NCBI GenBank assembly: GCA_017617445.1
Contig: JAFZWE010000009.1
Coordinates: 1-40,865 of the forward strand
Length of the DNA: 40,865 bases
Source of the DNA: Bacteroidales bacterium
GTDB lineage: Bacteria > Bacteroidota > Bacteroidia > Bacteroidales > WCHB1-69
Direction: 5' to 3'
The translations under genes and the position numbers were made by a program. Shown here in pieces: positions 17,962 to 40,033 of this stretch. The stretch's first letter is position 1. Every line of letters begins with the position of its first letter. Below the pieces are notes generated by a model. It searched no databases, was not told the origin of the DNA, and saw only the letters and a program-made list of their open reading frames with translations.

Positions 17962-19107
17962 ATGGATTCACCACTCACAAATTTACAATACAAGTATTTT
18001 GCCTTTATCAGCTACAACTCCCACGACATCAAGTGGGGAAAACGCTTGCAGAAGAAACTGGAGCATTACCGGATGCCGGCCACCCTGTGCAGCGAGCGCG
18101 GATGGGTGCGCACGCCTATCAAACCAGTGTTTTTCGCGCCCACCGACATACAGCCGGGCGGTCTGTCGCAAGAGTTGCAGGAACGGTTGGCAGCATCCCG
18201 CCACCTCATCGTGATCTGTTCCCCCCATTCGGCCAAATCGGAATGGGTTGGAAAAGAAATCGAGTTTTTCCATCAGCTGGGAAGAACGCAGGATATCCAC
18301 TTCTTCATAGTAGATGGGGAACCTCATAGCGGGAATCCCGACACGGAGTGCTTCAACCCGGTGGTGGAAAAGTTGGGACTGCCTGAGATTTTGGGGGCGA
18401 ATATCCATGAGAAAATCCATCACCTGCCGTGGCTGAACCGCGAGCGGGCCTACGTGCAGCTCATCTCCAAACTGTTGAATGTTGAATTCGACACGATTTG
18501 GAAACGCCATCGCCGCCAACGCAGGATCAAAGCGATGGCTTGGGCTGTGGGGGCGCTGGTGTTGCTGGCCGTGTTGCTGGGAGTATGGCATAACAGCCAG
18601 CCCATGGATGTGACCTTGCAGGTGAAAGAGACCTCCGTCCATAACAACAACCTACCGCCACTGAAAGATGCTGTAGTGACCCTCGCTCTCGACAACAAGA
18701 CCGAAACCGACACGCTCCGCACCATCGATGGAAAGTTGGTTTTCCGTAACATCCCGCACAAGTACCTCAACCAGCCCGTGCACGTGACCATCGCCTGCCG
18801 CGACTTCCTGACAACCGATACCGTCATTACCCTGACAAAAGATTTGACCTTGAACATCGCCCGCGATCCGGCCGTCTATGGCGACATCCACTTCCAACTC
18901 TATGACCCGATGACGGAGCAATATCTGCCCGGTGTAGAAGTGACCATAGAAGGGCAAAACGTGCAGTCTGACGAAACAGGAACCGTTGCGCTGCAAATTC
19001 CATTGTCGGCCCAGCGGGAAAAGTATCCCATTTCCGCCTCCATTTCCCTGCATGAAGATACCCTCTACCCACCCTGCACGGGTAGTTATATGATTTTTAA
19101 GAAATAA
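17962..19107 (+). CDS. TIR-domain protein with one transmembrane helix and periplasmic beta domains
   Basis: The start at 17962 follows a promoter element; the open frame further upstream overlaps the TonB gene. The 381-residue protein has a TIR domain at about residues 10-180: FISYNSHD at 15-22, a GGLSQELQERLAASRHLIVICSP core, and a W95-x3-E99 motif (EWVGKE). The Glu is in the place of the catalytic Glu of NAD-cleaving TIR domains. IVDGEP and HLPWLNRERA motifs follow, as in a bacterial TIR subfamily I recognise. A basic stretch (KRHRRQRRIK) precedes one helix at residues 191-209, so the TIR domain should be cytosolic. The C-terminal ~170 residues look like two carboxypeptidase-regulatory-like beta sandwiches in the periplasm. 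The next gene starts 16 bp on. I infer NAD hydrolysis or cyclisation controlled from the periplasm. A scaffolding role is the alternative. Confidence 0.85.
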   Translation: MDSPLTNLQYKYFAFISYNSHDIKWGKRLQKKLEHYRMPATLCSERGWVRTPIKPVFFAPTDIQPGGLSQELQERLAASRHLIVICSPHSAKSEWVGKEIEFFHQLGRTQDIHFFIVDGEPHSGNPDTECFNPVVEKLGLPEILGANIHEKIHHLPWLNRERAYVQLISKLLNVEFDTIWKRHRRQRRIKAMAWAVGALVLLAVLLGVWHNSQPMDVTLQVKETSVHNNNLPPLKDAVVTLALDNKTETDTLRTIDGKLVFRNIPHKYLNQPVHVTIACRDFLTTDTVITLTKDLTLNIARDPAVYGDIHFQLYDPMTEQYLPGVEVTIEGQNVQSDETGTVALQIPLSAQREKYPISASISLHEDTLYPPCTGSYMIFKK

Positions 19108-19123
19108 CCAATATTATATTATA

Positions 19124-21463
19124 ATGAAAAGAATTTTTACCCTCTTTTTCTTTTTGCTCTCTGTCACCTTTGCGTTTGCGCAGACCACCCAGGTGGGCTA
19201 TGCGAAGACCAAAGGACGGATGGATAGCAAAGGAAATCTGATTCCAGGCACCCGCATCGGCGGGGTCTCCATCCAGCTCACAGGCGGTCACTCCACCGTG
19301 GCCGACGCCAATGGTAACTTCACCCTGACGGCGCCCGACAAGAAGTTTTACCTCAGCAATGTGCAGAAGCAGGGCTATGTGCTCACCGACCCCGACATGC
19401 TGAAAAAGCAGTATGCCTGCTCCTCCAACCCGCTGGTGATTTCGATGGAGACCAAGGAGAAACTCGCCGACGACCAGTTGGCCGCCGAGCGGAAACTGCG
19501 CCGTCAGCTACAGAAGCAGCTGCAACAGAAGGAAGAGGAAATTGATGCCCTCAAGGAGGAAAACAAGATCACCGAAGAGGAGTACCGCCAAGCATTGCAG
19601 AAGCTCTATGCCGACCAGGAGAGCAACGAGAAACTCGTCTCCGAAATGGCCAAGCGGTATGCAGAAATTGATTACGACCTGCTGGACGAGTTCTACCGGC
19701 AGGTGTCGTTCTCTATCGAGAACGGCGACTTGGTGAAAGCCGACTCGTTGCTGCGCTCCCGCGGTGACGTGTCGCAACAGATCAAGGATGCACAAAAGAA
19801 AGCACAGGCGCTCAACGAGGAGAGGGAGCAGCTGCGCCAGGCCGAAGCGGTATTGGCCGCCGACATCGAAGAGTTGGGCCGCCGCTGCTATGGTTTCTAT
19901 GAAAAATTTGCTGCACAATACAAAAACGACTCCGCCGCCTATTACTTGGAGTTGCGGGCGAATCTGGATACGACGAATGTGGGGTGGCAGTTGGAGGCAG
20001 GCAAGTTCATTCAAGAATACTTAGCCGACTACAATAAGGGGCTGACCTATTACCAACGTGCCTTGCGACAGGCTTTGGCACAAAATGGGGAGAAACATCA
20101 TGATGTGGCGATCTGCTACAACAGCATAGGTACCATATATGTTGATATGGGTGATTACAAAAAAGGGATAGAGTTTTACCAAAAAGCCCTTGCCATTCAA
20201 CAATCGGTTTATGGAGAGAACAATCCCGATGTGGCTCAGAGTTACCACAATATGGGGATGGGGTATTCGAATTTAGGAGAATACAAACGTGCAATGGAGT
20301 ATTACCAAAAAGCTCTGGATCTCCGAAAATCAGTTTGTGGTGAATCTCATCCCGATGTGATGGACAGCTACCTCAACTTCGGTGCATTTTATGCTGAACA
20401 AGGGGAATTTGAATCCGCATTGGATTATTTCCAAAAGGCGCTATCCATCGGGCAAACGGTTTACGGGGAGGAACATCCGGAGGTGGCGCCAATCTACCAC
20501 AACATCGGTCTGGTGTATTCCAATTTTGGCAACTATGACCAAGCTTTGGAGTATATCCAAAAATGTCTGGCCATTCTGAAATCAGTTTATGGGGAGGAAC
20601 ATCCCGATGTGGCAAATACCTACATCAGTATCGCTGTCGTGTACTATGACCAACAAGAATATCTCCAAGCACTTGAATATTACTCGAAAGTCTTGGCTAT
20701 CCGAAAGTCAATTCTCGGAGAACATCATCCTGATGTGGCTCAAACTTACGTCAATATGGGTTTGGCTTACTCTTGTATAGGAGAAGACAATCTGGCGTTG
20801 GAGTGCCACCGAAAGGCATTGGCAATCCAGTTGCCGCTTTTGGGAGAAAACCATCGCGATGTGGCAAGCGCATACACGGGTATCGGTTTTGCATACCTGA
20901 ACCTCAGAGACTATGTCCAGTCATTAGAATACAACCAGAAAGCATTGTCTATCAGAATAATGCTTTTTGGTGAAGGCAATCCGTATGTGGCATTATGCGA
21001 AAATAGCATTGCGGAAGTTTACGATGCAAAAGGCGATTATGACCAGGCAAAAGAATATTACAAGAAGGCTTCGACGATTCTGAAATCTTATCTCGGGGCA
21101 GACTTTCCTTTGGTCGTGCAAATTGAAAACAATATCACTTTCCTTCAAAAAAAGAAAATCGCACTGGATCCTGCCGCCATGCAACAATATGTCTATACGC
21201 TTGCCTTTGATGCGGAAGTAAGTCCCGGATTTTCAGGAGAATATGTTGTACTGGAGTGCGATCAATGGTCGGTTGAAAGCCAGGAGTCTCTCTTTATCTT
21301 TATTGAAGGTCAAAGAGGAAAATCCACCACGGTTTTAATGATGAAAGATGATGTCATCTTGCATCATACTTTTGAAAATGGCATTGATGTACCCATCGAT
21401 TTGAAAAAGATCGGGAAGAAAGAGAAGGCGCGTATAATGGGATTGTATCAACAGAATAAATAA
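19124..21463 (+). CDS. Exported TPR protein, paralogue 1 of 4
   Basis: The 779-residue protein has a signal peptide (residues 1-20, ending FAFAQ). A beta-sandwich domain follows at about 21-108, of the carboxypeptidase-regulatory type (GNLIPGTRIGGVSIQL, VADANGNFTL). Next is a charged coiled coil at about 111-260 (AERKLRRQLQKQLQQKEEEI). About eight TPR units of 42 residues of the kinesin-light-chain type come next (A-x-EYYQKAL, then VYGE-x-HPDVA). The C-terminal domain is about 95 residues of unknown type (FSGEYVVLE, IDLKKIGKKEKARI). No T9SS tail is present, so it probably stays in the periplasm. It follows the TIR gene by 16 bp, and the beta-sandwich type is shared with the TIR protein's periplasmic part. 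I infer a sensor or scaffold acting on it. Confidence 0.82.
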   Translation: MKRIFTLFFFLLSVTFAFAQTTQVGYAKTKGRMDSKGNLIPGTRIGGVSIQLTGGHSTVADANGNFTLTAPDKKFYLSNVQKQGYVLTDPDMLKKQYACSSNPLVISMETKEKLADDQLAAERKLRRQLQKQLQQKEEEIDALKEENKITEEEYRQALQKLYADQESNEKLVSEMAKRYAEIDYDLLDEFYRQVSFSIENGDLVKADSLLRSRGDVSQQIKDAQKKAQALNEEREQLRQAEAVLAADIEELGRRCYGFYEKFAAQYKNDSAAYYLELRANLDTTNVGWQLEAGKFIQEYLADYNKGLTYYQRALRQALAQNGEKHHDVAICYNSIGTIYVDMGDYKKGIEFYQKALAIQQSVYGENNPDVAQSYHNMGMGYSNLGEYKRAMEYYQKALDLRKSVCGESHPDVMDSYLNFGAFYAEQGEFESALDYFQKALSIGQTVYGEEHPEVAPIYHNIGLVYSNFGNYDQALEYIQKCLAILKSVYGEEHPDVANTYISIAVVYYDQQEYLQALEYYSKVLAIRKSILGEHHPDVAQTYVNMGLAYSCIGEDNLALECHRKALAIQLPLLGENHRDVASAYTGIGFAYLNLRDYVQSLEYNQKALSIRIMLFGEGNPYVALCENSIAEVYDAKGDYDQAKEYYKKASTILKSYLGADFPLVVQIENNITFLQKKKIALDPAAMQQYVYTLAFDAEVSPGFSGEYVVLECDQWSVESQESLFIFIEGQRGKSTTVLMMKDDVILHHTFENGIDVPIDLKKIGKKEKARIMGLYQQNK
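19192..19287 (+). repeat. 96-bp exact repeat, copy 1 (paralogue 1)
   Basis: These bases are identical to 21543-21638 in paralogue 2. They encode the start of the beta-sandwich domain. The match continues further left after one mismatch, back into the signal-peptide region (CACCTTTGCGTTTGCGCAGA). Confidence 0.85.
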
Positions 21464-21471
21464 ATATCGAT

Positions 21472-23817
21472 ATGCGAAAAAGTCTGATATTGTCCATCTT
21501 GTTCCTCCTCGCCGCCACCTTTGCGTTTGCGCAGACCACCCGGGTGGGCTATGCGAAGACCAAAGGACGGATGGATAGCAAAGGAAATCTGATTCCAGGC
21601 ACCCGCATCGGCGGGGTCTCCATCCAGCTCACAGGCGGACACTCCACCGTGGCTGACGGCAACGGAAACTTCACACTGACGGCGCCCGACAAGAAGTTCT
21701 ACCTCAGCAATGTGCAGAAACAAGGATATGTGCTCACCGACCCCGACATGCTGAAGAAGCAGTATGTATGCTCCTCCAATCCGCTGGTCATTTCGATGGA
21801 AACCAAGGAGAAACTTGCCGATGACCAGTTGGCCGCCGAGCGAAAACTGCGCCGTCAGCTACAGAAGCAACTGCAACAGAAGGAAGATGAAATCGATGCC
21901 CTCAAGGAGGAAAACGAACTCACCGAGGAGGAATACCGCCAAGCTTTGCAAAAACTCTATGCCGAACAGGAGAGCAACGAGAAACTCGTCTCCGACATGG
22001 CCAAAAGGTATGCGGAACTTGATTACGACTTGCTGGACGAGTTCTACCGGCAGGTGTCGTTCTGTATCGAAAACGGCGATTTGGTGAAAGCCGACTCGCT
22101 GTTGCTCTCCCGCGGCGATGTGTCGCAGCAGATCAAGGATGCGCAAAAGAAAGCGCAGGCGCTCAACGAAGAAAAGGAGAAGTTGCAACAGGCCGAAGCG
22201 GTATTGGCCGCCGACATCGAAGAGTTGGGCCGCCGCTGCTACAGCTTCTATGAAAAATTCTCCTCGCAGTATAAAAACGATTCCGCCGCTTATTACTTGG
22301 AACTGCGCGCGAATCTGGATACAACGAATATAGGGTGGCAGTTGGAGACGGGTGAGTTTATCCAAGAATACTTGGCCGACTACAACAAGGGACTGACCTA
22401 TTACCAACGCGCTTTACGACAGGCATTGGCACAATACGGGGAAAATCACCGGGATGTCGCTTACAGCTACAACTATATCGGCTCCGTGTATCACGCTTTG
22501 GGCGAATACGAACACGCAATGGACTATTTCCAAAAGGCCTTGTCCATCCAACAAGCGATTTTGGAGAAAAATCATCCGGATTTGGTGAGCACCTACAACC
22601 ACATTGGCTCGGTGTATGGAGCTTTGGGCGACTTCTCCCACGCTTTGGAGTATTACCATAAATGTTTGGACATCCGCCGAACGCTTTACGGGGAGAATAA
22701 CCCGGAGGTGGCGAATAGCTACACCAACATCGGTTATACACTCTATGAATCAAGAGACTTCGAACATGCGATGGAGTATCACCAAAAGGCTTTGTCCATC
22801 CTGAAATCGGTTTACGGAGAGAACCATCCGGAGGTGGCGATAAGCTACAACAACATCGGTTTGGTGTACGAAATCATGGACGATTATGCCCAAGCACTGG
22901 AGTATCACCAAAAGGCCTTGAACATCCGGAAATCGATTTATGGAGAGAATCACCCCAATGTGGCAATCAACCTGAACAATGTCGGCTCCGTGTACATCGT
23001 GCTAAAGGAGTACACGCAGGCACTGGAGTATTTCCAGAAGTCCCTCTCTATCTGGAAAGCATTTTACGGGGAGAATCACCCGCAAGTGGCCCTGAGCTAC
23101 AATAACATCGGCTGGCTGTACGTGAATCAAGGAAAGTATTCCACAGCATTGGAGTGCTATCAGAAGAGCTTGTCCATTTGGAAATCCGTTTACGGAGAGA
23201 AACATCCGGATGTGGCGATGTGCTATAACAATATCGGAGAATTATATACTAACCAGGGCGATTATGCCCATGCTTTGGAGTATCGCCAAAAGGCCCTGGA
23301 CATCATGGTCTCCCTTTATGGAGAAAGTCATCCGGAGGTGGGCTTGTGCTATTATTTTATTGGAAACGTGTACGAGAACCAAGGCAACTATGACTCGGCG
23401 ACGGAGTATTACCAGAAATCCATGGCCATTAATGAACAGGTTTATGGCAAAGACCATCTCTATACAAAAATCACCGCCGGGAGAATTGAGACTGTTTCCA
23501 AAAAGAAAACGGCGCAGGATCCTGTGGCCATGAAGCAATATGTTTTTACGGCAGCTTTTGAAGCGAATGAAAATCAAGAACTTTCAGGGGAATATGTGGT
23601 GCTGAAGTTTGATAATTGGACCATCGATGACACGAAATCGCTGTATGATGTCCGAAAAGAGATGAAAGGGAAACCTACAACTGTACTGCTGATGAAAGGC
23701 AATGGCCTTGCACAGCATACTTTTGATAAAGGGATAGATGTGCCCATCGATTTGAAAAAGGTAGGGAAGAAAGAGAAGACGCGGATCGTGGGATGGTTCC
23801 ATCAGTATGTCAAATAA
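21472..23817 (+). CDS. Exported TPR protein, paralogue 2 of 4
   Basis: The 781-residue protein has the same plan as paralogue 1: signal peptide (MRKSLILSILFLLAATFAFA), beta sandwich, coiled coil with nearly the same sequence (QLQKQLQQKEDEIDALKEEN), about eight 42-residue TPR units and the unknown C-terminal domain (LSGEYVVLKFDNW, IDLKKVGKKEKTRI). The N-terminal ~310 residues are almost identical to paralogue 1, while the TPR units are clearly different. This is what expected if the N-terminus is homogenised and the TPR face diversifies. The gene starts 8 bp after paralogue 1, so it is co-transcribed. Confidence 0.82.
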   Translation: MRKSLILSILFLLAATFAFAQTTRVGYAKTKGRMDSKGNLIPGTRIGGVSIQLTGGHSTVADGNGNFTLTAPDKKFYLSNVQKQGYVLTDPDMLKKQYVCSSNPLVISMETKEKLADDQLAAERKLRRQLQKQLQQKEDEIDALKEENELTEEEYRQALQKLYAEQESNEKLVSDMAKRYAELDYDLLDEFYRQVSFCIENGDLVKADSLLLSRGDVSQQIKDAQKKAQALNEEKEKLQQAEAVLAADIEELGRRCYSFYEKFSSQYKNDSAAYYLELRANLDTTNIGWQLETGEFIQEYLADYNKGLTYYQRALRQALAQYGENHRDVAYSYNYIGSVYHALGEYEHAMDYFQKALSIQQAILEKNHPDLVSTYNHIGSVYGALGDFSHALEYYHKCLDIRRTLYGENNPEVANSYTNIGYTLYESRDFEHAMEYHQKALSILKSVYGENHPEVAISYNNIGLVYEIMDDYAQALEYHQKALNIRKSIYGENHPNVAINLNNVGSVYIVLKEYTQALEYFQKSLSIWKAFYGENHPQVALSYNNIGWLYVNQGKYSTALECYQKSLSIWKSVYGEKHPDVAMCYNNIGELYTNQGDYAHALEYRQKALDIMVSLYGESHPEVGLCYYFIGNVYENQGNYDSATEYYQKSMAINEQVYGKDHLYTKITAGRIETVSKKKTAQDPVAMKQYVFTAAFEANENQELSGEYVVLKFDNWTIDDTKSLYDVRKEMKGKPTTVLLMKGNGLAQHTFDKGIDVPIDLKKVGKKEKTRIVGWFHQYVK
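21543..21638 (+). repeat. 96-bp exact repeat, copy 2 (paralogue 2)
   Basis: These bases are identical to 19192-19287. Paralogues 3 and 4 have the same protein segment with many synonymous changes, so the two exact copies are the most recent exchange. Confidence 0.85.
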
Positions 23818-23825
23818 TTATCAAT

Positions 23826-26507
23826 ATGCGAAAAAGTCTGATATTCTCCATCTTGCTCCTCCTCTCCACCGCCTTTGCGTTCGCACAGGCCACGCAAGCT
23901 GGCTATGTGAAGACCAAAGGACGTATGGACAGCAAGGGAAACCTGATTCCCGGCACTCGCATCGGAGGGGTTTCCATCCAACTCACAGGCGGCCACTCCA
24001 CCGTAGCTGATGCCAACGGCAATTTTACACTGACCGCTCCCGACAAAAAGTTCTATCTCAGCGACGTGCAGAAGCAGGGCTATGTGCTCACTGATCCCGA
24101 AATGCTGAAAAAGCAGTATGTATGCTCCTCCAACCCGTTGGTGATTTCGATGGAGACACCCTCACAGCAACAGGACGACAAGCTGGCGGCCGAGCGAAAA
24201 CTTCGGCGCACCTTGCAGCAGCAGTTGCAAAAGCGCGAGCAGGAGATGGACTCGCTGCGCGAGCTGAACCGCATCACGGAAGAAGAGTACCGTGCAGCCC
24301 TCCAGCAAATATATGACGAACAGGATCATAGCTCCCGCCTCGTCAAGGCAATGGCGGAGCGTTATGTGAGTATTGATTTCGACAATTTGGATGAATTCAA
24401 TCGCCGCATCAGCGACTGCATCCTCAACGGACGGCTGCAGGAGGCCGACTCACTCATCGCTTCCAAAGGCAGCATACAATCGAGGGTGAACCAGCTCGAC
24501 CAGCAACTGGCCGCCAACGCTCAGGTGCGTGAGGCGCTGGAGAAGAGCGAGGCACTTGCCCGTATCACCCGCGACGAACTGGCCGCCGACTGCTACCACA
24601 AGTCTGAAATTTTCCAGCTGCAGAACCAGCGCGACTCCGCCGCCCACTACCTTGAGATTCGCGCCCGCCTCGACAGCTCCAACGTGCTGTGGCAACTGGA
24701 TGCCGGCGAATACCTGTTCCGGTATATGGCCCAATTGGATCAGGCCATGGCCTATTACGAGCGGGCGATGAACCTCGCCATCTCAGAGGATGTAGGCGAT
24801 AAGTCGCTCGCAATCAAGTGCTATAACCATATCGGACACCTCTATTTTGATAAAGGAGAATATGATTCCGCCCTCCAGTATTTTCAAAAGGCCTTGAGCC
24901 TGACCGCTTCGGTTTATGGTGACCATCATCCAGAAATCGCATTGTGTTACAGCAACATAGGAAGTGTCAATTCGGTATGGGGGCACTACGCCACTGCGGA
25001 GGAACATTATCAAAATTCATTGGATATTTTGAAATCGAATGATGGTGAAAACCATGCTGAAGTGGCCAATGTGTACCATAACCTCGGCAGTCTGCATTCC
25101 CAACAAGGGAATTACGAGAGCGCATTGAAGGATTTTGAGAAAGCCTTGGAAATCCGGAAGGCACTGTTTGGCGATGAGCATTCTGACCTCTCCAACAGTT
25201 ACCTTGCGCTGGGTGCGTTGTACTACAACTATAAAAGGGATGAGGAAAAGGGGATGGAGTACATGAATAAGGCTCTTGACATCCGCACGAAAATATATGG
25301 GGAGTCCCATCCTGAAGTGGCCGACTGCTACAGTGAGATCGGATACGTCTGCTCCGACCAAGGCGAATATGGCCAGGCATTGGAGTATCATCAAAAGGCG
25401 TTGCAGATTCTGATGGAGGTATATGGTCAGCGGCATCCGATGGTGGCCTCCACCTACGACCAGATTGGACGGGAGTATTTCCGCATGTCCAATTTTCCAA
25501 AATCGTTGGAGAATTTTCAAAAGGCTTTGGAACTTCGGCAGCAGATTTTCGGAGACAACCATCCCACCACAGCCATCAGTTACAACAATGTCGCACTGGT
25601 GCATACCCGTGTGGGCAACTACGACGAGGGCCTTGCTGATTATCAGAAAGCCTTAGACATCTCCATCCAATATCATGGCGAAAATCATCCCGAAGTGGCG
25701 GATGTTTACAACAACATCGGTCGTTTGTGTTTTCTGACAGGAGATAATGACTGTGCGATGGAATATCATCGTAAGGCATTGGATATTAGAAAGAAGATAT
25801 ATGGAAATGAGCATCCCGACGTAGCTTTGAGCTACAATGAATTGGCGGGTGTATCGGCGCGCAAAGGGGATTTTGAGGGTGCGATGGAACAGTATCAAGC
25901 CGCACTCGACATCCGGTTGAAGGAATATGGGAACGAGCATCCCACCGTGGCGGCCTGCTATAACGACATGGGACGGCTTTTGTCGAACCATGGCGACTAT
26001 GCCAAGGCAATGGATTACTATTTGAAATCTTTGGCCATCAAGAAGAAAGTGGATGGTGAAGAGCATGTGGCAACGGCGATTAACTATAATGATATCGGGG
26101 TATTGTATTTTCGACAAAAATTATATGACTCTGCCGTTGTAAACTATCAGAAAGCGTTGGAAATCAATAAAAAAGTGTACGGAGAAAACCATCCGCAAGT
26201 GGCTGTGTGCAACTATAATATTGGATTTTCGCTTGCCGGAAAAGGCGACTTGGAAGGGGCGTTGCATTACCTGCAAAATGCCTTGAATATGATGGTGGCA
26301 CTGGCAGGTTCCAGCCATCGTGCGATTGCTATGTACGAAAAGGCTGTTGCCGACTTACAGGTTCAATTGGGAGATTATAAAACAGCCTTGGAGCATTATC
26401 AGAATATTTTGGAAATCACGCAGGCCAAATATGGGAAGAAATCTTCGCAGGCCAAGGCGGTTATTCAAAAAATTGATGAAATAAAGAAATTAATAAAACA
26501 GAAATGA
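23826..26507 (+). CDS. Exported TPR protein, paralogue 3 of 4 (divergent, longer)
   Basis: I start at ATG 23826, giving the signal peptide MRKSLIFSILLLLSTAFAFA and leaving 8 bp after paralogue 2. An upstream ATG (23793) overlaps paralogue 2 and has no signal. The 893-residue protein shares the beta sandwich (to about residue 108) with the others. From there the coiled coil is different (KLAAERKLRRTLQQQLQKREQEMDSLREL). It has about twelve or thirteen TPR units instead of eight, and it ends in a basic helix (KKLIKQK) without the C-terminal domain seen in the other three. It may therefore do a different job in the same complex. The stop overlaps the next start by 4 bp. Confidence 0.82.
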   Translation: MRKSLIFSILLLLSTAFAFAQATQAGYVKTKGRMDSKGNLIPGTRIGGVSIQLTGGHSTVADANGNFTLTAPDKKFYLSDVQKQGYVLTDPEMLKKQYVCSSNPLVISMETPSQQQDDKLAAERKLRRTLQQQLQKREQEMDSLRELNRITEEEYRAALQQIYDEQDHSSRLVKAMAERYVSIDFDNLDEFNRRISDCILNGRLQEADSLIASKGSIQSRVNQLDQQLAANAQVREALEKSEALARITRDELAADCYHKSEIFQLQNQRDSAAHYLEIRARLDSSNVLWQLDAGEYLFRYMAQLDQAMAYYERAMNLAISEDVGDKSLAIKCYNHIGHLYFDKGEYDSALQYFQKALSLTASVYGDHHPEIALCYSNIGSVNSVWGHYATAEEHYQNSLDILKSNDGENHAEVANVYHNLGSLHSQQGNYESALKDFEKALEIRKALFGDEHSDLSNSYLALGALYYNYKRDEEKGMEYMNKALDIRTKIYGESHPEVADCYSEIGYVCSDQGEYGQALEYHQKALQILMEVYGQRHPMVASTYDQIGREYFRMSNFPKSLENFQKALELRQQIFGDNHPTTAISYNNVALVHTRVGNYDEGLADYQKALDISIQYHGENHPEVADVYNNIGRLCFLTGDNDCAMEYHRKALDIRKKIYGNEHPDVALSYNELAGVSARKGDFEGAMEQYQAALDIRLKEYGNEHPTVAACYNDMGRLLSNHGDYAKAMDYYLKSLAIKKKVDGEEHVATAINYNDIGVLYFRQKLYDSAVVNYQKALEINKKVYGENHPQVAVCNYNIGFSLAGKGDLEGALHYLQNALNMMVALAGSSHRAIAMYEKAVADLQVQLGDYKTALEHYQNILEITQAKYGKKSSQAKAVIQKIDEIKKLIKQK

Positions 26508-28894
26508 TGAAACACAATGTTATTGTTGAGTTGTCTCGTTGCAAGGGTGTGAGCCTGCTCTTTTTACTTTTGCTGTTCACGCTTCTTGCCCCTGCGCAGA
26601 CCACCCAAAACGGCTATGTGAAAACCACGGGTCGGATGGACAACAAGGGAAACCTGATTCCCGGCACCCGCATCGGAGGGGTTTCCATCCAACTCACAGG
26701 AGGCCACTCCACCGTGGCCGATGCCAACGGCAACTTTACACTGACGGCACCCGACACGAAGTTCTACCTCAGCGATGTGCAGAAGCAGGGCTATGTGCTC
26801 ACCGACCCCGAAATGCTGAAAAAGCAATATGTATGCTCCTCCAACCCGCTGGTGATTTCAATGGAGACCAAGGAGAAACTCGCCGACGACCAGTTGGCCG
26901 CCGAGCGGAAACTGCGCCGCCAGCTTCAGAAGCAGCTGCAACAGAAGGAAGAGGAGATCGATGCCCTCAAGGAGGAGAACAAAATTACCGAAGAGGAATA
27001 CCGCAAGGCGATGAAGAAACTCTATGCCTATCAGGAGAGCAATGAAAAGCTCGTCTCCGACATGGCCAAACGATACGCGGAGCTCGATTACGACCTGCTG
27101 GATGAGTTCTACCGGCAGGTGACGTTCTGCATTGAGAACGGCGACCTCGTGAAGGCCGACTCGCTGCTGCACTCCCGCGGCAATGTGTCGCAACAGATTG
27201 AAGAGGCCCGAAAGAAAGCACAAGCAATCAGCGAGGAAAATGAAAAACTGCGTCAGGCCGAAGCGGTATTGGCCGCCGACATCGACGAGCTGGCTCGCCG
27301 TTGCAATAGCTACTATGAGAAATTCGCCGCGCAATTTGAAAACGACTCCGCAGCCTATTACATGGAGCTGCGAGCGAGTCTGGACACAACGAAGGTGGAC
27401 TGGCAGTTGGATGCAGCTTCGTTCATTATGAAATACCTCGCTGGCTACAAAAAAGCCTTGTTCTATTACCAACGCGCCCTGCGACAGGCACTTTCCCAAT
27501 ACGGGGAACAACATCCGTATGTGATGAAGAGCTATAACAATATGGCTATCGGATATTTTAATATTGGCGAATACGAGCGTGCATTGGAATATCATAAAAA
27601 ATCCTTAGCCATCCGCAAAGCGGTTTACGGGGAAAACCATCCTGATGTGGCAACCAGCTATGGCAACCTCGGCAATGTTTATGGTGAACTCGGAGACTAT
27701 GCCCATGAGTTGGAATGTTACCACAAAGCCATGGAGATACGAAAAGCAGTCTATGGGGAGAACCATCCTGATGTGGCCATGAATTATAGCGACCTTGGTG
27801 TTGCGTATGAGTATTCAGGCGACTATGCACAGGCATTAGAGTGCCATCAAAAGGCTTTGGATATCAGAAAGTCGGTTTTGGGTGAACATCACACTGATGT
27901 GGCGGACAGCTACATCAACCTGGGAATATTATATGCTGATATAGAAGATTTTGAAAAGGCATACGAGTGTTTTCAAAAGGCTTTGGACATACAAAAAGAC
28001 ATTTACAGCGAACACCATCCTGACGTGGCGGAAATCTACAATAACCTTGGATTGGTCTGCAGCTCATTGGGAAATCACACCCAGGCATTGGAGTATATCC
28101 AGAAAGGATTGGACATCATGAAATCCTTTTTCGGGGAGTCGCATCCGAAAGTGGCCATCGTTTACAACAGCATGGGGACAGTGTATTCCGAACAAGCTGA
28201 CTATCCCCATGCTTTGGAGTATTACCAAAAGGCGTTAACCATCCAGAAATTGTTTTTGGGAAATAATCATCCTGATGTGGCCCTCAGCTACATCAATATC
28301 GGCGACGTGTATTCTTGCCAAAAAGACAGCAAACAGGCCATGGAATATTACCAAAAGGCATTGGATATCTTGCAATCACTTTATGGGGACGGGCATCCCT
28401 ATGTGGCTATGATTTATAGCAATATGGGGGAATTGTATGATGTACAAGGCGATTACGCACAAGCACAGAAGTATTACCAAAAGGCCCTGCCCATCCTTAA
28501 GTCGGTTTTTGGCGAGGAGTATCCGTTGACAATAAAAACTGAAAAGAAATTAGCGTTGCTTCCCCAAAAGAAAATCGCACTAAATCCTGCCGCCATGGCA
28601 CAGTATGTCTATACGTTGACCTTTGACGCTGACGCAAACCAAGAATTTTCAGGGGAATATGTAGTGCTGGAGCTCAACAAATGGACCATCGACAGTGAAG
28701 AATCTCTCTTCATCTTATCCGAAGAAACAAAAGAGAAATCCATCCCTTGCATAATGATGAAAGACGAAGTGATAACAACGTGTACTGTTACTGAGGATTC
28801 TAATGTGACACTTGATATGAAGAAGGTGGGGAAAAAGGAGAAACAGCGGATCACGGAGAAGTATCACCAATGGAAAAATGAACAGGGGAAATAG
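26504..28894 (+). CDS. Exported TPR protein, paralogue 4 of 4
   Basis: The 796-residue protein starts at ATG 26504, overlapping the stop of paralogue 3 as ATGA. ATG 26507 is an equal alternative. The signal peptide is longer and has a polar lead before VSLLFLLLLFTLLAPAQ. The beta sandwich, coiled coil, about eight TPR units (YYQKALDI, NHPDVA) and the C-terminal domain (FSGEYVVLELNKW, LDMKKVGKKEKQRI) match paralogues 1 and 2. Overlap of the stop and start codons suggests translational coupling. After its stop there are 72 bp before the channel-like gene, with no clear hairpin. Confidence 0.82.
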   Translation: MMKHNVIVELSRCKGVSLLFLLLLFTLLAPAQTTQNGYVKTTGRMDNKGNLIPGTRIGGVSIQLTGGHSTVADANGNFTLTAPDTKFYLSDVQKQGYVLTDPEMLKKQYVCSSNPLVISMETKEKLADDQLAAERKLRRQLQKQLQQKEEEIDALKEENKITEEEYRKAMKKLYAYQESNEKLVSDMAKRYAELDYDLLDEFYRQVTFCIENGDLVKADSLLHSRGNVSQQIEEARKKAQAISEENEKLRQAEAVLAADIDELARRCNSYYEKFAAQFENDSAAYYMELRASLDTTKVDWQLDAASFIMKYLAGYKKALFYYQRALRQALSQYGEQHPYVMKSYNNMAIGYFNIGEYERALEYHKKSLAIRKAVYGENHPDVATSYGNLGNVYGELGDYAHELECYHKAMEIRKAVYGENHPDVAMNYSDLGVAYEYSGDYAQALECHQKALDIRKSVLGEHHTDVADSYINLGILYADIEDFEKAYECFQKALDIQKDIYSEHHPDVAEIYNNLGLVCSSLGNHTQALEYIQKGLDIMKSFFGESHPKVAIVYNSMGTVYSEQADYPHALEYYQKALTIQKLFLGNNHPDVALSYINIGDVYSCQKDSKQAMEYYQKALDILQSLYGDGHPYVAMIYSNMGELYDVQGDYAQAQKYYQKALPILKSVFGEEYPLTIKTEKKLALLPQKKIALNPAAMAQYVYTLTFDADANQEFSGEYVVLELNKWTIDSEESLFILSEETKEKSIPCIMMKDEVITTCTVTEDSNVTLDMKKVGKKEKQRITEKYHQWKNEQGK

Positions 28895-28966
28895 CTGACT
28901 TTCCTTTGGCAATGATGATTCTGATGATAAAAACGAATTTTGTTTATTGATAAATCTATTGATATC

Positions 28967-30928
28967 ATGAATTTTCAAACGTGGCTTCCCAAGAGTATGT
29001 CCAAAATCTCGTCGAGATTCATTTGGCTGCTGCTCTGTATAATCGTGATTTCCATCATCCTGATCCCAGTTGTGGGAGAAATCGTGCCTTGTATGAGGTT
29101 TGTGAGCAAATTCTGGGTGGATATTTTCAGTCCGGTGAGCCTGCGACAGATATCGTATAAGGGCAGCTGCGACGACAACATGGGCATCGCCTCTGCCGTG
29201 GCCTACGCGATAGGTTTTGTCTTGATTACCATTATCATGATTCCCATAGTTACGAACTATATGCGTACGATGGGCGACCGCTATTTGGATGGCACACTGA
29301 AAAAATACGCTTGGAAAGGGCATATCCTCTTTTTGGGCTTCGACAGTATGATGCTGTGCGCCCTGAAAGACGCTTGCCAACAGGGAAAACAGGTGGTGCT
29401 GGCGGTACCGACGGATGTGCGGCAAGTCCGTGACCGTCTCCGTGAGATGCTGCCGGTCGATAAATTCGAGCGTTTGGAGGTGGTGCAGTGCAACAAATGC
29501 GATGTTCAGGATCTTCAGATGAAGGCGTGCGTCAGTGAAGCGTACGAGATTTTTATCATCGGTCAGTCGGACGACCCGATGCACGATGCCAACAACCTCA
29601 AGTCGTTGGATCACATTTGCGAAATGGTGACTGCCCCTGAAAACTTCCGCTGCCACGTCCATATTCGCAATATCGTGACCTTCGCGCTGATGCAACGGCA
29701 GGGATTGGGAGTGAAAGACAGCCTGCGCAACAAGGCCATGGCCTTCAACTTTTATGAGAATATCGCAGGGAATCTGTTGTCGGATTTTGAAAGCGGCAAA
29801 AAGCTGATGACATTGGACTACCAGAATGAGCGGCAGAATCTCTCCAACTGCCCCGGCACGACCGCTCATCTGCTCATTCTCGGCATGACACAGATGGGAC
29901 TGGCTTTGGCCCGTGAGGCGCTCATGGTGGCGCATTACCCCAACCATCGCGTCAAAATCACGCTGGTGGACGACCGCGCCCAAGAAGAAATGTATTACTT
30001 TATAGGCCGCTATAAGGAGCTGTTCAAATGGTGCCATCATTCGTATGCTGAGCTCGATGCGTTGAATCTTGAGGATCATGTCCCTCTCCGCGTTGCTGAC
30101 AATCCTCTTTTGGACGTTGAATTTGAATTTATTCAGGGAAGCATTGCACACCCCAAGCTGATGAATCTCATTGAGGCTTGGGCCAAAGACAAAAGTCAGA
30201 TTCTGACGATGGCGGTTTGCACCAATGACTCTCCCAAGAATATGGCAACGGCATTGTATCTTCCGCGCACCCTGCTGGAGGGCGACAACCCCATCCATGT
30301 TTGGGTCTATCAACATGATGACGATAGTATGCAGGGGTTCAGCGACCACCCGATGTTCCAGTACCTGCATGTTTTCTCTCCCGGCGAATATGGCAGTCTG
30401 AACACCCCCGGAAATACCATCCGAGAGCTGGTGGAGTCCGTGGATTTTGCCTATCGTCAATCCTACAACCCGGATGCAAAGGAGGTCGGCTGGATGGAAA
30501 TGTCGCATTATGAGAGGTGGTCGAATGTTTATAATGTACGTTCCATCATCGCCAAACTGCGCGGGCTGGGCTATGCAATGACCTGGGCCAATGGCGCCGT
30601 GGAATCGTTGGCTTGTTTGGCTCCCAATACTCCTGGAAACTGCGAGCATTTCCCGACGGAGGAGGAGATCCTGCAGTTGAGTGTAACGGAACAATTCCGC
30701 TGGGTGACGGATACGTTGACCCGAGGGTTCCGTCCTACTACGAAAGAGGAACATTACAAGGTGTCTGAATTAGGGAAAGATTTTAAAAGAGAATTGAAAA
30801 ACAGGCATTTCGCACACGATGACATCCGTCCGTTTGATGAACTGGATGAAGAAACGGCAAAAATCAATATCGACATGACGAAAGCCATCATAGACATTAT
30901 CAAGAAAAAAATGACTCAAAAGATATGA
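28967..30928 (+). CDS. Two-helix membrane protein with two RCK/TrkA-N-like domains (channel-like)
   Basis: I start at ATG 28967 (MNFQTWLPKSM...). A TTG nine codons upstream is less likely. The 653-residue protein has helices at about residues 18-37 (WLLLCIIVISIILIPVVG) and 76-97 (AYAIGFVLITIIMIPIVT), with a ~40-residue loop between. A linker leads to a Rossmann-like domain at about 118-255 (KGHILFLGFD, KQVVLAVPTD, YEIFIIGQSDDP) and a second at about 301 onward (AHLLILGMTQMGLALAREAL, ITLVDD). The order resembles BK, CASTOR and other ligand-gated channels with tandem RCK domains. However, the classical TVGYG filter is absent and the loop reads GSCDDNMG instead. It could be a channel of unknown ion, or a nucleotide-sensing membrane protein. 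Overlap with the RyR gene implies a shared function. Confidence 0.78.
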   Translation: MNFQTWLPKSMSKISSRFIWLLLCIIVISIILIPVVGEIVPCMRFVSKFWVDIFSPVSLRQISYKGSCDDNMGIASAVAYAIGFVLITIIMIPIVTNYMRTMGDRYLDGTLKKYAWKGHILFLGFDSMMLCALKDACQQGKQVVLAVPTDVRQVRDRLREMLPVDKFERLEVVQCNKCDVQDLQMKACVSEAYEIFIIGQSDDPMHDANNLKSLDHICEMVTAPENFRCHVHIRNIVTFALMQRQGLGVKDSLRNKAMAFNFYENIAGNLLSDFESGKKLMTLDYQNERQNLSNCPGTTAHLLILGMTQMGLALAREALMVAHYPNHRVKITLVDDRAQEEMYYFIGRYKELFKWCHHSYAELDALNLEDHVPLRVADNPLLDVEFEFIQGSIAHPKLMNLIEAWAKDKSQILTMAVCTNDSPKNMATALYLPRTLLEGDNPIHVWVYQHDDDSMQGFSDHPMFQYLHVFSPGEYGSLNTPGNTIRELVESVDFAYRQSYNPDAKEVGWMEMSHYERWSNVYNVRSIIAKLRGLGYAMTWANGAVESLACLAPNTPGNCEHFPTEEEILQLSVTEQFRWVTDTLTRGFRPTTKEEHYKVSELGKDFKRELKNRHFAHDDIRPFDELDEETAKINIDMTKAIIDIIKKKMTQKI

Positions 30929-31224
30929 AAACAAAACATTATACACCCAATCCCATTGACACCTCCCGTATAGAGTTGCCAACCGAGCTCCTTGATTTGG
31001 CCGAGACCATGGCCCGGAACGTGCACGAAGTGTGGGCGAGAACCCGCCTTGAACAAGGATGGACCTACGGCCCTGAACGCAATGACCCGCTCAAAGAGCA
31101 TCCCTGCCTCGTGCCCTACGACGAGCTTCCGGAAAGTGAAAAGGAATACGACCGCCACACCTCCCTCGAAACCCTGAAGATGCTGGCGGCCTTGGGCTGG
31201 AAGCTGGTGAAAACGGAGGAATAG
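30925..31224 (+). CDS. RyR-domain protein (ryanodine receptor repeat, bacterial)
   Basis: The 99-residue protein is a single RyR domain. Its conserved core is visible: YTPNPIDTSRIELP, LAETMARNVHEVWA, GWTYGPERND, HPCLVPYDELPESEK and YDRHTSLETLKMLAALGW. RyR repeats occur in animal ryanodine receptors and as stand-alone or fused domains in bacteria. A structure of a Bacteroides example has been determined, but the ligand is not settled. The ATG at 30925 overlaps the stop of the channel-like gene by 4 bp, so the two are probably made in equal amounts and may bind each other. No membrane helix or signal is present, so it is cytosolic. A palindromic repeat follows 19 bp after the stop. Confidence 0.9.
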   Translation: MKTKHYTPNPIDTSRIELPTELLDLAETMARNVHEVWARTRLEQGWTYGPERNDPLKEHPCLVPYDELPESEKEYDRHTSLETLKMLAALGWKLVKTEE

Positions 31225-31385: not shown

Positions 31386-32216
31386 TCAGTCTCTCACGCA
31401 CCGCACCGAGCAACCCTCACCTTTGTCTACAGTTCCTCTTCCCACTGTGGCACTGTGATAGTAAATTCCCCGGTAGAAGGCTGGCCATACAACGGGATTA
31501 TCACCATAAATAGTGGTAAGGTCCCCGCCGTGTTCAATATCCGTAGAGCTCCAAAAGCGGGCATATTCACCGAAGTGAACGCAGCCATCTGTGTAGGTGC
31601 CGGCAGGACGGGCGGAAAAACCGGTGGTGTTGTTGTATTCAGGAGTATTGCCTACCGCACACTCCGCATACGAAACCTTCCATCCCGTACTGCAGGCCAA
31701 AGCCTTGGCGATGGCGGTGGGGTCATCGCCACAGTTTATGTGGTGCTGGCTGAGATAGTCGGTGAGCTGTGTCCATTCCGCGTCGCTCGGCAGATGCCAG
31801 CCGTCGGGACATACGCCCTGTACCCCCGAAGGATTAGCATCGCTGCCAGAAGACACTCCCCGCACTGCTGTTGTCCAATTGTACAGGTAACCGTATTCTT
31901 CCACGTTGTTCACGTCGTTATCGGGATAATAGAGCCGCAAATTCAATCCGTTCGTATTGTCAACGTAAGGTATGGCGGTGCTGTCGGCGTAACGGTGGGC
32001 ACGCAGGTTCTGCGCCATCCATACCTGACTGCCAATCTGTACGGCATCGTAGTGGTGCCCTTCAATGTCGGTGACGGCATCGGGAATCATCACCAACACA
32101 GCGGGATTTTCCGGGTCAACAGGGGTAGGCTCTGGTTCCGGTTGGGGATCTTTCTCGCAACTAACCAACATCACCACAGCCATCATGCTGAATAGTATTG
32201 ATGTTATCTTTTTCAT
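31386..32216 (-). CDS. FISUMP-domain lipoprotein
   Basis: The 276-residue protein has a lipoprotein signal with lipobox V-S-C and Cys at residue 20, then a Pro/Glu-rich linker (PEPEPTPVDPENP). One Fibrobacter-succinogenes-type domain fills the rest. Typical features are DIEGHHYDAVQIGSQVWMAQ, the YGYLYNW segment, GVCPDGWHLPSDAEW and the end SVRCVRD. The domain has a C-type-lectin-like / formylglycine-generating-enzyme-like feel with conserved Trp and Cys, but its ligand is unknown. It is probably surface- or periplasm-exposed. It lies 41 bp after the larger FISUMP gene on the same strand and probably shares its transcript. Confidence 0.85.
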   Translation of the reverse strand: MKKITSILFSMMAVVMLVSCEKDPQPEPEPTPVDPENPAVLVMIPDAVTDIEGHHYDAVQIGSQVWMAQNLRAHRYADSTAIPYVDNTNGLNLRLYYPDNDVNNVEEYGYLYNWTTAVRGVSSGSDANPSGVQGVCPDGWHLPSDAEWTQLTDYLSQHHINCGDDPTAIAKALACSTGWKVSYAECAVGNTPEYNNTTGFSARPAGTYTDGCVHFGEYARFWSSTDIEHGGDLTTIYGDNPVVWPAFYRGIYYHSATVGRGTVDKGEGCSVRCVRD

Positions 32217-32257
32217 CTTATAATAATTATTAAAGATTTGATATACAATAAATTATA

Positions 32258-34441
32258 TTATTCATTACGCAGACAGCGCACCGATAATCTGGCAGGTGGA
32301 TAAATAACAGTTTCTAGATACAAATCAGTATCTATCGTCCACAGCTGTGCACAGAAGTTGTAAGCGTTGCTTAGGAATTGAGCATAATTGAATATACCAA
32401 TATCTTGGTAAGAGCCATAAGAAGTGGGGCGAATGGTAAATCCCGTGGCATTGTTGGTGGACGGTTCTCCTCCCACTGAACATGTCCCATTGACGTGCAT
32501 CCACCCTGTCTGTGCAGCCAGTGCTTTGGCATTACTCACACCATCTTCATTGCAAGTCAGTTCCGGATGGGTGGCAAAATAGTTGTATAAGTCCAGCCAT
32601 TCGTAGCGGCTGGGGATATGCCATCCTTCCGGACAGATGCCCCTGTAGTGTCCGTTGGTGTCAGCGCACCACTCCCCTTCTGAACCGATGGTGTCCAAGG
32701 CGACAGCCCAGGAATAGAGCAAACCCAACTCGTTGCCGACATTGCTAGCCGAATCATGGTTGGGCCAGTAGGCACCGACTTCCGTGTAGTCATATCCATT
32801 TTGACTGGTGTATGCAAACGAGTCGTTGATGAAGCGTTGGCCGGTGCGTGGGGAGGTCTCGCAACGCATGTTCTCTTTTGTCCAGCACTGGCTGCCAATC
32901 TGCACGGTGTGGTACACGATGCCCTCGTGGTCCGCAACAGTGGGCATATCAGGGCATGGGGTGCCGTATTCTTCCTCCTCAGGGTCTTCCTCTTCCAAAG
33001 CATAATCACGCAGACAGCGCACCGAGAAGCAGTTGTCGGGGTCGGACCATGAACGAACTCTTCCAATTTCCCATGAACTATTTAGTTGCATCGCAACAGG
33101 AGACGATAATGATGCCCTTGAACTGCTCCAGAAGACAGCCGTACTGAACATATCGGCATAATAGGTATAGTACCAGCCGGCAGGCATTGCAGAAAAACCA
33201 GTGGCATTGTTTGCCCCCAGGTCGTTACCAGGGTCGCAAGTTGCGGTGGTGTCGCGCCAGCCTGTCTGTGCGGCTAAAGATTTTGCCAAATAGGGTGAAT
33301 AGTAATTATTGGGGTCGTCAGGGTTGCTACACAGGTATTCACTTTGTGACGATACATATTTCTTCAACTCATACCATTCATTGTAGCTGGGCACATGCCA
33401 TCCTTCGGGACAGATGCCTCTGCGGTGGCCTTTGAAGAAGGCCCATACGGGGTGTATGCGGGTAGTGTCCACATGCAACTCACCGTAGGTGGTATTGAAG
33501 GTGTCCACCGCCGCGTTCCAGTTGTAGAGTACTCCGTAGCCCAGCGGCGCGTAGGTGGCTGAGTCGCCCAGCATCCAGTGCGCCTGCTTGCCCGTGGCGG
33601 TATAGGGAGTTCCTTCCGGTGTAATCAGATAGGTTCCTGTGGTTGGTGAGGTTACGCACCGCATATTCTCCCGTGTCCAGCACTGGCTGCCAATCTGCAC
33701 GGTGTGGTACACGTTGCCTTCGTGGTCGGCAACGGTGGGCATACCTGGACAAGGTATGGCATCGGCAGCGAAAAATTCCATGGAGAGGGCTTCGTCATAA
33801 CTCTGCGGCTGGGCAATCACCGCACTCTGGCGGGTGATGTTGCTGATGGTGGCATAGCCGATGTAGCGCATGTAGTCGCCGGGCAGGAAATCGTGCGTGG
33901 AGGTGCCCTTCAGCTGCAGCGTGCGCGGGTTGTAGGTGCTACCCGTGAACATAATCCGGTCGGAGCCGCCGTGTCCCGTGTTCACCATCTTCAGACTCTG
34001 CCGGCGGGTCGGAGTCTGCACGGTGAGGATATACATTTGCGGTGTGGAAAGGCTGATGTTGAAGTAGTTGTCGCCGGCAGCCAGCTCCGTCTGGCATTGC
34101 GCGTAGAGGCGCCCCTGTAGGTCCACAATGGTGAGTTGTGCCCGCTCGTTGGCTGGCGAGCTGAGGTTCACCCGCGTGGCTCCGTCAAACGGGTTGGGCA
34201 TCACCTTCGTCTCCTCCTTCAGCGTATGGTTTCCCACCCCCACACCGATGGCGAGGGTATAGACCGTGTCGGGGAAGGCGATGGTCTCCTGCCAGCCCCG
34301 CGAGAGGTTGGCGATCACCACGCGGTCGAGTTGCACGTAGGCGTTGTTCTGGTCCTGACCGGTGAACGTCAGCGTAACGCTCTGCCCCCAAAGGGCAATG
34401 CTTCCGAATAGGAAGAGGGAAAATAATATGAGCTTTTTCAT
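32258..34441 (-). CDS. Exported protein with sorting-like domain and two FISUMP domains
   Basis: The 727-residue protein has a signal peptide (residues 1-20). A region at about residues 80-155 has a T9SS type A sorting-domain look (VMPNPFDGATRVNL, VDLQGRLYAQ, PQMYILTVQT, then a KMVNTG end), although such domains normally lie at the C-terminus. Two FISUMP domains follow at about residues 231-475 and 490-727. Both open with a near-identical segment (MPTVADHEG, VYHTVQIGSQCWT-x-ENMRC) and end SVRCLR. The DNA for the openings is also highly alike, so one domain is a duplicate. Function is unknown. A surface or periplasmic binding role is likely. A -7 element lies about 100 bp upstream. Confidence 0.82.
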   Translation of the reverse strand: MKKLILFSLFLFGSIALWGQSVTLTFTGQDQNNAYVQLDRVVIANLSRGWQETIAFPDTVYTLAIGVGVGNHTLKEETKVMPNPFDGATRVNLSSPANERAQLTIVDLQGRLYAQCQTELAAGDNYFNISLSTPQMYILTVQTPTRRQSLKMVNTGHGGSDRIMFTGSTYNPRTLQLKGTSTHDFLPGDYMRYIGYATISNITRQSAVIAQPQSYDEALSMEFFAADAIPCPGMPTVADHEGNVYHTVQIGSQCWTRENMRCVTSPTTGTYLITPEGTPYTATGKQAHWMLGDSATYAPLGYGVLYNWNAAVDTFNTTYGELHVDTTRIHPVWAFFKGHRRGICPEGWHVPSYNEWYELKKYVSSQSEYLCSNPDDPNNYYSPYLAKSLAAQTGWRDTTATCDPGNDLGANNATGFSAMPAGWYYTYYADMFSTAVFWSSSRASLSSPVAMQLNSSWEIGRVRSWSDPDNCFSVRCLRDYALEEEDPEEEEYGTPCPDMPTVADHEGIVYHTVQIGSQCWTKENMRCETSPRTGQRFINDSFAYTSQNGYDYTEVGAYWPNHDSASNVGNELGLLYSWAVALDTIGSEGEWCADTNGHYRGICPEGWHIPSRYEWLDLYNYFATHPELTCNEDGVSNAKALAAQTGWMHVNGTCSVGGEPSTNNATGFTIRPTSYGSYQDIGIFNYAQFLSNAYNFCAQLWTIDTDLYLETVIYPPARLSVRCLRNE

Positions 34442-36556: not shown

Positions 36557-36581
36557 TTTAATAACCAATATGTTACATTTA

Positions 36582-39089: not shown

Positions 39090-39101
39090 GGTTATGGTGT
39101 T

Positions 39102-40016: not shown

Positions 40017-40033
40017 TGTCTTTGTTTTTTTAT

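Follow-up and report, generated by a model that had tools for sequence, protein, structure and literature searches.

A Bacteroidales operon that may link a membrane-spanning TIR protein and exported TPR proteins to a channel-like protein bearing a RyR repeat

Why would a bacterium encode a TIR domain, a series of exported TPR proteins and a domain known from animal calcium-release channels in one operon? The question is raised by a stretch of 40,865 nucleotides from a Bacteroidales bacterium (GenBank assembly GCA_017617445.1, contig JAFZWE010000009.1, forward strand), hereafter called the window, which is contig C22 of a 2.07 Mb genome that is 80% complete. At positions 17962-31224 (+), it holds seven intact open reading frames (ORFs) on the same strand, every one with an ATG and a stop codon. 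A first-pass annotation, made from the sequence without database searches, had proposed that these genes form an undescribed cross-envelope TIR system, and by recomputing the coordinates we obtained exactly the gaps that it gave (16, 8, 8, -4, 72 and -4 bp, in order). We consider the best reading of this operon to be a TIR signalling system that spans the envelope, with exported sensors on one side and a pore gated through RyR as its output, with a probability of roughly 0.58 in our estimation.

The first gene (17962-19107, +) encodes a receptor-like protein of 381 aa with a TIR domain and a transmembrane helix (TIR-TM). Its TIR domain scores above the cut-offs of both PF13676 (TIR_2; 40.2 bits, cut-off 28) and the ThsB_TIR family PF08937 (29.8 bits, cut-off 21.2). 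The candidate catalytic residue singled out by the first-pass annotation, E99, lies within the motif WVGKEI, and a Glu is found at this position in 11/11 aligned TIR-TM proteins, the window's included. We take this motif to resemble the catalytic motif of SARM1. The single helix (residues 191-209) is flanked within 15 residues by seven K/R on the TIR side and by one on the other side, in line with the basic residues reported earlier. Because the basic charge lies on the TIR side, the TIR domain should be cytoplasmic and the part beyond the helix is predicted to be periplasmic. This C-terminal half contains a carboxypeptidase-regulatory-like beta domain, which is weak in Pfam. Compared profile against profile, it matches the N-terminal domain of the TPR proteins encoded downstream (E 2e-5, probability 77%), whereas BLASTP between the two finds no match. 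Thus, the claim that both carry beta sandwiches of the same type stands at the level of profiles but not of plain sequence comparison.

The same TM-beta half also occurs in a second clade, with a different N-terminus in place of TIR: L087, L156, L158 and L159 have one non-TIR domain, L155 has a C39-like peptidase and L157 a short stretch of unrelated sequence. Therefore, the cytoplasmic head of TM-beta proteins seems exchangeable. DUF4062 is a possible identity of the head in the TIR-less clade: PF13271 is found at the right place, below cut-off, in 2 of 4 genomes of this clade (14.8 and 12.7 bits), but hhalign against one DUF4062 protein fails. The C39-like peptidase, fused to the TM-beta half in L155 (849-2372), is also found fused to RyR in L084 (9035-10036). 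A Patatin-Omp85 protein is encoded immediately upstream of the TIR-TM gene in L148 (9184-11292), and L151 has a gene of about the same size in this position.

The four following genes encode TPR proteins of 779, 781, 893 and 796 aa (19124-21463, 21472-23817, 23826-26507 and 26504-28894, all +), identified by the TPR families in Pfam. All four have signal-peptide-like starts, ending in AFAQ in three proteins and in APAQ in one, as read directly from the sequence, which agrees with their earlier description as exported. We compared 5 of 6 paralog pairs, which share 90-97% of residues in the beta domain (residues 20-110), at a nonsynonymous divergence (dN) of 0.015-0.054, but 39-50% in the TPR region (residues 300-690), at a dN of 0.39-0.59; proteins 1 and 2, for instance, are 97% identical in the first and 50% in the second. 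The third protein is the most divergent and lacks a C-terminal domain common to the other three. Since synonymous divergence (dS) in the beta domain of the pairs compared (0.25-0.87) is also lower than in the TPR region, gene conversion may add to constraint in keeping this domain conserved. A fixed docking domain combined with variable TPR arrays fits the idea of diversified sensors. The number of TPR copies varies among relatives, with one in L034 and L087, two in L070 and L083, three in L158 and L159, and four in L156 as in the window.

The sixth gene (28967-30928, +) encodes a channel-like protein of 653 aa, or of 662 aa if an upstream TTG at 28940 is the start. Taken alone, the protein has no Pfam match at E 0.05 and no meaningful match in PDB; N-acetylneuraminate lyase was discarded as its identity, as the PDB match (E 0.7) is one expected by chance. 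We used a family profile built from 27 of the 34 channel rows. First, its N-terminal part matched GsuK (4gx5, E 1.2e-9, columns 22-219), TrkA (4.4e-7) and MthK (3.4e-5), and a profile restricted to the N-terminal part (16 of 34 sequences) matched GsuK (E 2.6e-4), DMI1 (0.0043) and CASTOR (0.013). Second, columns 522-631 matched the bacterial RyR structure 3nrt (E 3.4e-9). Third, the profile matched the animal receptors RyR1, RyR2 and RyR3 at about 1e-9 to 1e-10 over the whole sequence, single stretches being weaker; read by eye, these alignments fall on Repeat12 and span the boundary of two repeats. The top match was 6uhi (E 2.2e-18), a chimera holding two RyR copies. Among the 27 members themselves, Pfam finds PF02026 in 8 (at E 0.01), Slo-like_RCK in 8 and TrkA_N in 6. 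With two helices predicted by hydropathy, the family is thus, at the level of profiles, one of two-helix channels with Rossmann domains of RCK type and a C-terminal RyR repeat of their own.

The corresponding domain in the window's protein (30437-30925, +) is visible only via relatives. By hhalign, separate RyR proteins match the C-termini of six channel relatives (probability 96.5%, E 7.5e-10), and these C-termini in turn match those of the window and of a relative, L034 (98.9%, E 1.3e-17). The latter is a sheep-rumen Bacteroidales metagenome-assembled genome (RGIG6737) whose channel protein is 87% identical to the window's. We rejected profile drift as the source of the assignment, because the chain through relatives held when the comparison was repeated without iterated hidden Markov models (HMMs). 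Since the chain holds while direct comparison fails, the window's copy is, judged by these profiles, a strongly diverged RyR repeat. The earlier description of a two-helix, two-RCK protein overlapping a RyR gene thus stands in part: the RCK domains are recovered through family profiles only, and RCK and RyR are not merely neighbours, as the channel carries its own RyR and the separate gene is a second copy.

We then looked at the loop between the two helices. By eye, an Asp motif (FVDPGN, LIDSNA or similar) is present in 12 of 16 aligned sequences, while the loop reads FSPVSL in the window and L034 and FRGIGG in L074/L075. The TVGYG potassium filter is absent from all 16. The helix region differs in other channel members and shows neither motif. 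In two further genomes, G003 and G201 (loci L082 and L083), a gene with an MscS domain above cut-off occupies the place expected for the pore; close behind it come an RCK-RyR gene that is shorter than usual (368 and 388 aa) and then RyR and TPR genes. This MscS-type gene beside the shorter RCK-RyR gene supports a pore-type output, and with it the ion-flux output suggested by the first-pass annotation.

The last gene (30925-31224, +) encodes a separate, single RyR domain of 99 aa, which was correctly recognized from the start (PF02026, 126.4 bits, cut-off 27.4, E 5.4e-37). According to a 2026 preprint, 2'cADPR and 3'cADPR, two isomers of cyclic ADP-ribose (cADPR) made by TIR proteins, are bound or cleaved by phage proteins with RyR domains (PMC13232231), which fits the idea that an RCK/RyR receiver may bind an NAD-derived nucleotide. 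In the phage protein RyDEP, which hydrolyses cADPR isomers, H75 and D117 are catalytic, W78 stacks on the adenine and H100 holds the phosphates (PMC13232231). By our mapping, H34, W37, H59 and D76 of the separate RyR correspond to these four residues with the same spacing, and H34, W37 and D76 recur in 22/22 RyR domains that lie outside the channel protein, H59 in 19/22. The presence of these residues is compatible with cleavage but does not prove it. The channel RyR of the window has Q585, W588, H626 and N643 (662-aa numbering) at the four positions. Across channel-linked RyR repeats W588 is found in 34/34, and H585, H626 and D643 in 31/34 each, the pair Q585 and N643, which replaces both catalytic residues, being found in the window and L034. 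Because both catalytic residues are lost there and kept in the separate RyR, the window's channel RyR is most likely a pure sensor, while the separate RyR would be either a second sensor subunit or a signal-ending hydrolase.

Together, these features suggest how the system could work. The exported TPR proteins, with their variable arrays, would sense something in the periplasm and, through their near-invariant beta domain, would dock on its counterpart in the TIR-TM protein. From its family and E99, the TIR domain is expected to make a signal of the ADP-ribose type from NAD+, probably one of the cyclic ADPR isomers. Both the RyR repeat of the channel and the separate RyR protein would read this signal, and ligand binding would open the pore so that ion flow halts or kills the cell. 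The more specific proposal that TIR-made cADPR isomers directly gate RyR-bearing channels of RCK or MscS type, with a trigger outside the inner membrane, is a tentative one that we place somewhat short of an even chance.

The strongest competing explanation makes the separate RyR protein the main receiver or terminator, either by binding the signal and docking on the channel or by hydrolysing the signal like RyDEP, and leaves the channel RyR of this lineage with a structural role only. It draws on the residues just described, the separate copy keeping all four and the channel copies of the window and L034 having Q and N at the catalytic positions, and on the hydrolase activity reported for RyDEP itself. 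However, the catalytic His and Asp are each kept in most channel copies, and 6 of 8 phage RyDEP homologs bound cADPR isomers, with cleavage reported for none (PMC13232231). Moreover, at 15 of 33 channel loci the sequence that was read holds no RyR gene within 3 kb besides the channel itself. We regard this explanation as somewhat unlikely.

We next looked for the genes elsewhere. Among 295 genomes of the order, PF02026 is found in 25 and the channel in 16, amounting to 30 genomes with either. The TIR-TM protein is matched in 16 genomes, with the TIR half covered in 10 (in three of them only that half), and all 10, the window's included, hold a RyR or channel gene, compared to 20 of the 285 others, a count uncorrected for kinship. 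In the 30 genomes, 16 of 49 TIR genes lie within 10 kb of a RyR/channel locus against 0.48 expected, an excess of about 33-fold computed with rounded genome sizes and ignoring contig ends, with a Poisson tail given as 0.0; 13 of 36 RyR/channel loci have such a TIR gene. As distances were counted from match starts, the window itself falls outside the 10 kb. For a detailed reading of 38 loci, L085 was dropped, also from the residue counts, as the same locus as L159, and L156 and L158 entered through the TIR-TM search rather than the RyR and channel searches. Of the 23 RyR genes outside the channel protein, 18 have a channel gene no more than 3 kb away, and a TIR gene lies within 10 kb in 15/38 loci, or in 18/38 if the TIR-less TM-beta relatives are counted.

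A TM-beta protein, TPR proteins and a receiver occur together in eight loci, in differing gene orders and several with overlapping genes. Four of these have TIR (the window, L034, L070 and L083) and four another head (L087, L156, L158 and L159). The order is TIR-TPR-channel-RyR in the window and L034, channel-RyR-TIR-TPR in L070 and MscS-RCK/RyR-RyR-TPR-TIR in L083. A possible fifth set with TIR, in G003, lies on two contigs, which overlap by 107 bp within a repeated TPR region and are likely continuous. On the channel tree (34 rows) the whole set requires at least three changes (bootstrap 3-5), and the TIR-TM proteins of G120, G003 and G201 are 72%, 64% and 60% identical to the window's. Since the set is scattered over the channel tree while the TIR-TM proteins remain 60-72% identical, related TIR-TPR modules have been paired with different RyR-bearing receivers. 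Judged from gene content, nothing argues more strongly than this recurrent pairing for a RyR repeat that reads the TIR product. Thus, the linkage noted in the window recurs beyond chance but in shuffled order. The prediction that would have undone it, that the genes stand apart in most genomes, came out half true: RyR and channel are linked, TIR joins them in only part of the loci, and the system is modular rather than fixed.

The pairing extends beyond the order. In a sample of 375 genomes of the phylum, RyR was found in 27, the window's included; we read 15 loci from 14 genomes, the other 12 of the 26 RyR genomes all belonging to genus g240. A channel search in 395 genomes retrieved, outside the order, 10 channel proteins that reach the RyR columns, seven of which adjoin a TIR gene, a share far above chance. 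In G296, G307, G328, G510 and G383, this gene has a PF13676 match above cut-off within 6 kb of the channel, although the gene is interrupted by a stop in G328 and the RyR match is below the Pfam cut-off in G383; in G411 and G471, two of the five weaker channel candidates among the ten, the neighbouring TIR gene was found by a custom TIR HMM. A custom RyR HMM had no match in G471, G644 and G668. In one genus, nine loci (L220-L228) encode proteins of another kind, about 890 aa long and ending in a tandem of RyR domains, eight of 880-924 aa and one cut by the contig end, with predicted helices in only one; L219 gave no match.

RyR genes are also carried by viruses, with 11 viral loci encoding a protein 54-64% identical to the window's. 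No TIR-TM protein was found in viral contigs and no channel in plasmids. In L206, L207, L208, L210 and L212, the viral RyR gene is followed by genes for proteins of about 205, 290 and 400 aa, the last being adenylosuccinate-synthetase-like (PurA-like) in the three arrays scanned (L206, L208 and L210). With this PurA-like neighbour and no NARP1 enzyme in these three arrays, we rejected the idea that phage RyR genes lie beside NARP1 enzymes. One 9 kb contig classified as viral (L209, 5345-9096) carries RyR, a TIR protein and a partial channel-RyR and looks like a host locus.

These distributions bear on what the operon is for. It could be an envelope or osmotic stress pathway instead of an anti-phage one, with TPR proteins that sense envelope damage and a channel that adjusts ion balance. 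The exported sensors and the MscS-type gene of two relatives would suit such a role, and the scanned left flank is mostly housekeeping. On the other hand, the spread of the genes is patchy, as the counts for RyR and channel in the order indicate, the TPR arrays diverge while their beta domain stays fixed, and RyR genes are carried by phages. Moreover, some relatives have neighbours typical of conflict systems (TIR-SIR2, nSTAND and TIR-FGE). We thus find a stress pathway unlikely and an anti-phage role for this putative signalling system likely.

NAD+ depletion is common among bacterial TIR proteins. The TIR domain might therefore kill by depletion alone, leaving the RCK/RyR protein as a cation regulator that reads NAD or ADP, with no dedicated messenger. 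GsuK does respond directly to ADP and NAD+ (PMC3510474). However, cyclic ADPR isomers are ligands of RyR domains from the same Pfam family (PMC13232231), and TIR is paired repeatedly with RyR-channels, also outside the order, such that we judge depletion alone quite improbable. Chance adjacency of separate TIR-TPR and channel-RyR modules, each of which is also found without the other, is close to refuted by the recurrence counts, with eight loci that unite the three components in varied orders, several with overlaps, a 33-fold excess of TIR genes near RyR/channel loci and 7 of 10 channels outside the order beside TIR.

Several observations nonetheless count against a cross-envelope TIR system with a RyR-gated pore. 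First, the fold assignments are made by sequence alone, and a direct comparison of separate RyRs with the channel C-termini of the window and L034 yields a probability of 1.5%. Second, since the pore loop of the window has lost the Asp of the D-P-G-N-like motif, conduction by this copy is uncertain. Third, association is incomplete: no TIR gene lies within 10 kb in 23 of the 38 RyR/channel loci; TIR-TM and TPR genes occur with no nearby channel at five loci (L147-L151, of which L147 reaches the contig end); and on the channel tree, loci with the whole set do not cluster more than they do under shuffled labels, with values as low in 87 of 500 shuffles. Outside the order, the contigs that carry the channels of G634, G644 and G668, which measure 10.9, 4.8 and 6.5 kb, hold no TIR gene, and neither TIR nor RCK channel is found in the stretch read around the nine tandem-RyR loci. 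Fourth, the operon leaves little trace in collections of known systems. With TPR proteins 1 and 3 of the four included in the scans, PADLOC-DB 2.0.0 yielded only matches of ThsB or SAVED-TIR type and generic TPR matches, and NCBIfam 20.0 only TIR and TPR matches below curated cut-offs, save for a TPR end-of-group match of protein 3. Among the 27 channel relatives, PADLOC gave one weak PDC-S11 match (E 5.7e-4).

How does this putative system relate to described ones? With Thoeris it shares a TIR enzyme of ThsB type, with its catalytic Glu, encoded with an effector expected to sense the TIR product, and the TM-macro type of Thoeris also acts at the membrane (PMC11204291). In contrast to Thoeris, the receiver here is a RyR repeat on a channel-like protein, and the TIR protein crosses the membrane and is accompanied by exported TPR proteins. 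Because no ThsA-type SIR2, SLOG or macro effector was found in the seven genes or in 17 scanned flanking ORFs, we file the operon as a form of TIR nucleotide signalling and not as Thoeris. We know of no ion-channel output or cross-envelope sensing in the described Thoeris types. The phage RyDEP and RyR sponges share the Pfam family and, in the separate RyR, the four ligand residues, but they serve counter-defence (PMC13232231), while the RyR domains described here belong to a bacterial TIR operon, one of them as part of a channel. The available text of that preprint names no bacterial TIR-RyR system, only a RyR-like structure of B. thetaiotaomicron. The literature that we searched describes no bacterial TIR-RyR-channel system, although surveys of TIR systems may cover part of it.

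Among channels, GsuK and its relatives (4gx0, 4gx5; MthK) likewise have two helices followed by RCK domains, GsuK having two RCK domains and being activated by the adenine nucleotides ADP and NAD+ (PMC3510474). The window's family differs from them by having no TVGYG filter in the aligned sequences, an extra C-terminal RyR and a TIR partner. The plant channels CASTOR, POLLUX and DMI1 (6o6j, 7vm8) share a weak RCK profile match confined to the first RCK part. The D-P-G-N pore motif of the relatives resembles the predicted CASTOR filter AD265(S/A)GNHA, in which the D265N change kills CASTOR (PMC6697748); however, no RyR repeat was matched in these proteins and the window's copy lacks the filter Asp. 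Finally, animal ryanodine receptors also have the RyR repeat (Repeat12) on a channel, but the rest of the receptor is unmatched and the pore family is different.

In the surroundings of the operon, the scanned genes of the left flank are mostly housekeeping ones (CinA, nucleoside phosphorylase, BatA-like), followed by a TonB_C protein. On the right, two adjoining proteins with Fib_succ_major domains, one with two stretches of the domain, are encoded at 31386-34441 (-). They are followed at 34781-40822 (-) by closely spaced genes for a kinase-AAA fusion, an Hsp70-like protein and two further proteins; the kinase-AAA protein partly matches the PD-T4-6, MAD6 and IetA models. Promoter-like sites number 23 against 16.6 expected and terminator-like sites 13 against 14.5, and tRNA and Rfam scans gave no match. 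Near other RyR/channel genes, we observed MutS-domain proteins with about four helices in L067 (7244-9058) and L079 (8325-10160), and proteins comparable to these in length and number of helices in L076, L078 and L092. A SIR2-TIR fusion adjoins the RyR gene in L065 (8646-9971) and L079 (10886-12343), followed in L079 by an nSTAND protein.

Whether cyclic ADPR acts directly on ryanodine receptors has long been disputed. Tests of the RyR region are also called for in the RyDEP preprint (PMC13232231). Here, a channel-like protein of compact size bears a RyR repeat and is encoded beside the TIR enzyme that would make its ligand, so that direct binding and gating can be tested in vitro with bacterial proteins. 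If our proposal is true, TIR immunity would gain an ion-channel output and cross-envelope sensing. Such a system would be a bacterial counterpart of the cADPR-ryanodine receptor axis, and the RyR repeat would be a receptor for ADPR signals on bacterial channels too, independently of or before its use in animals. Thus, the operon suggests that bacteria may link TIR-made signals to channels via a domain of animal calcium-release channels.

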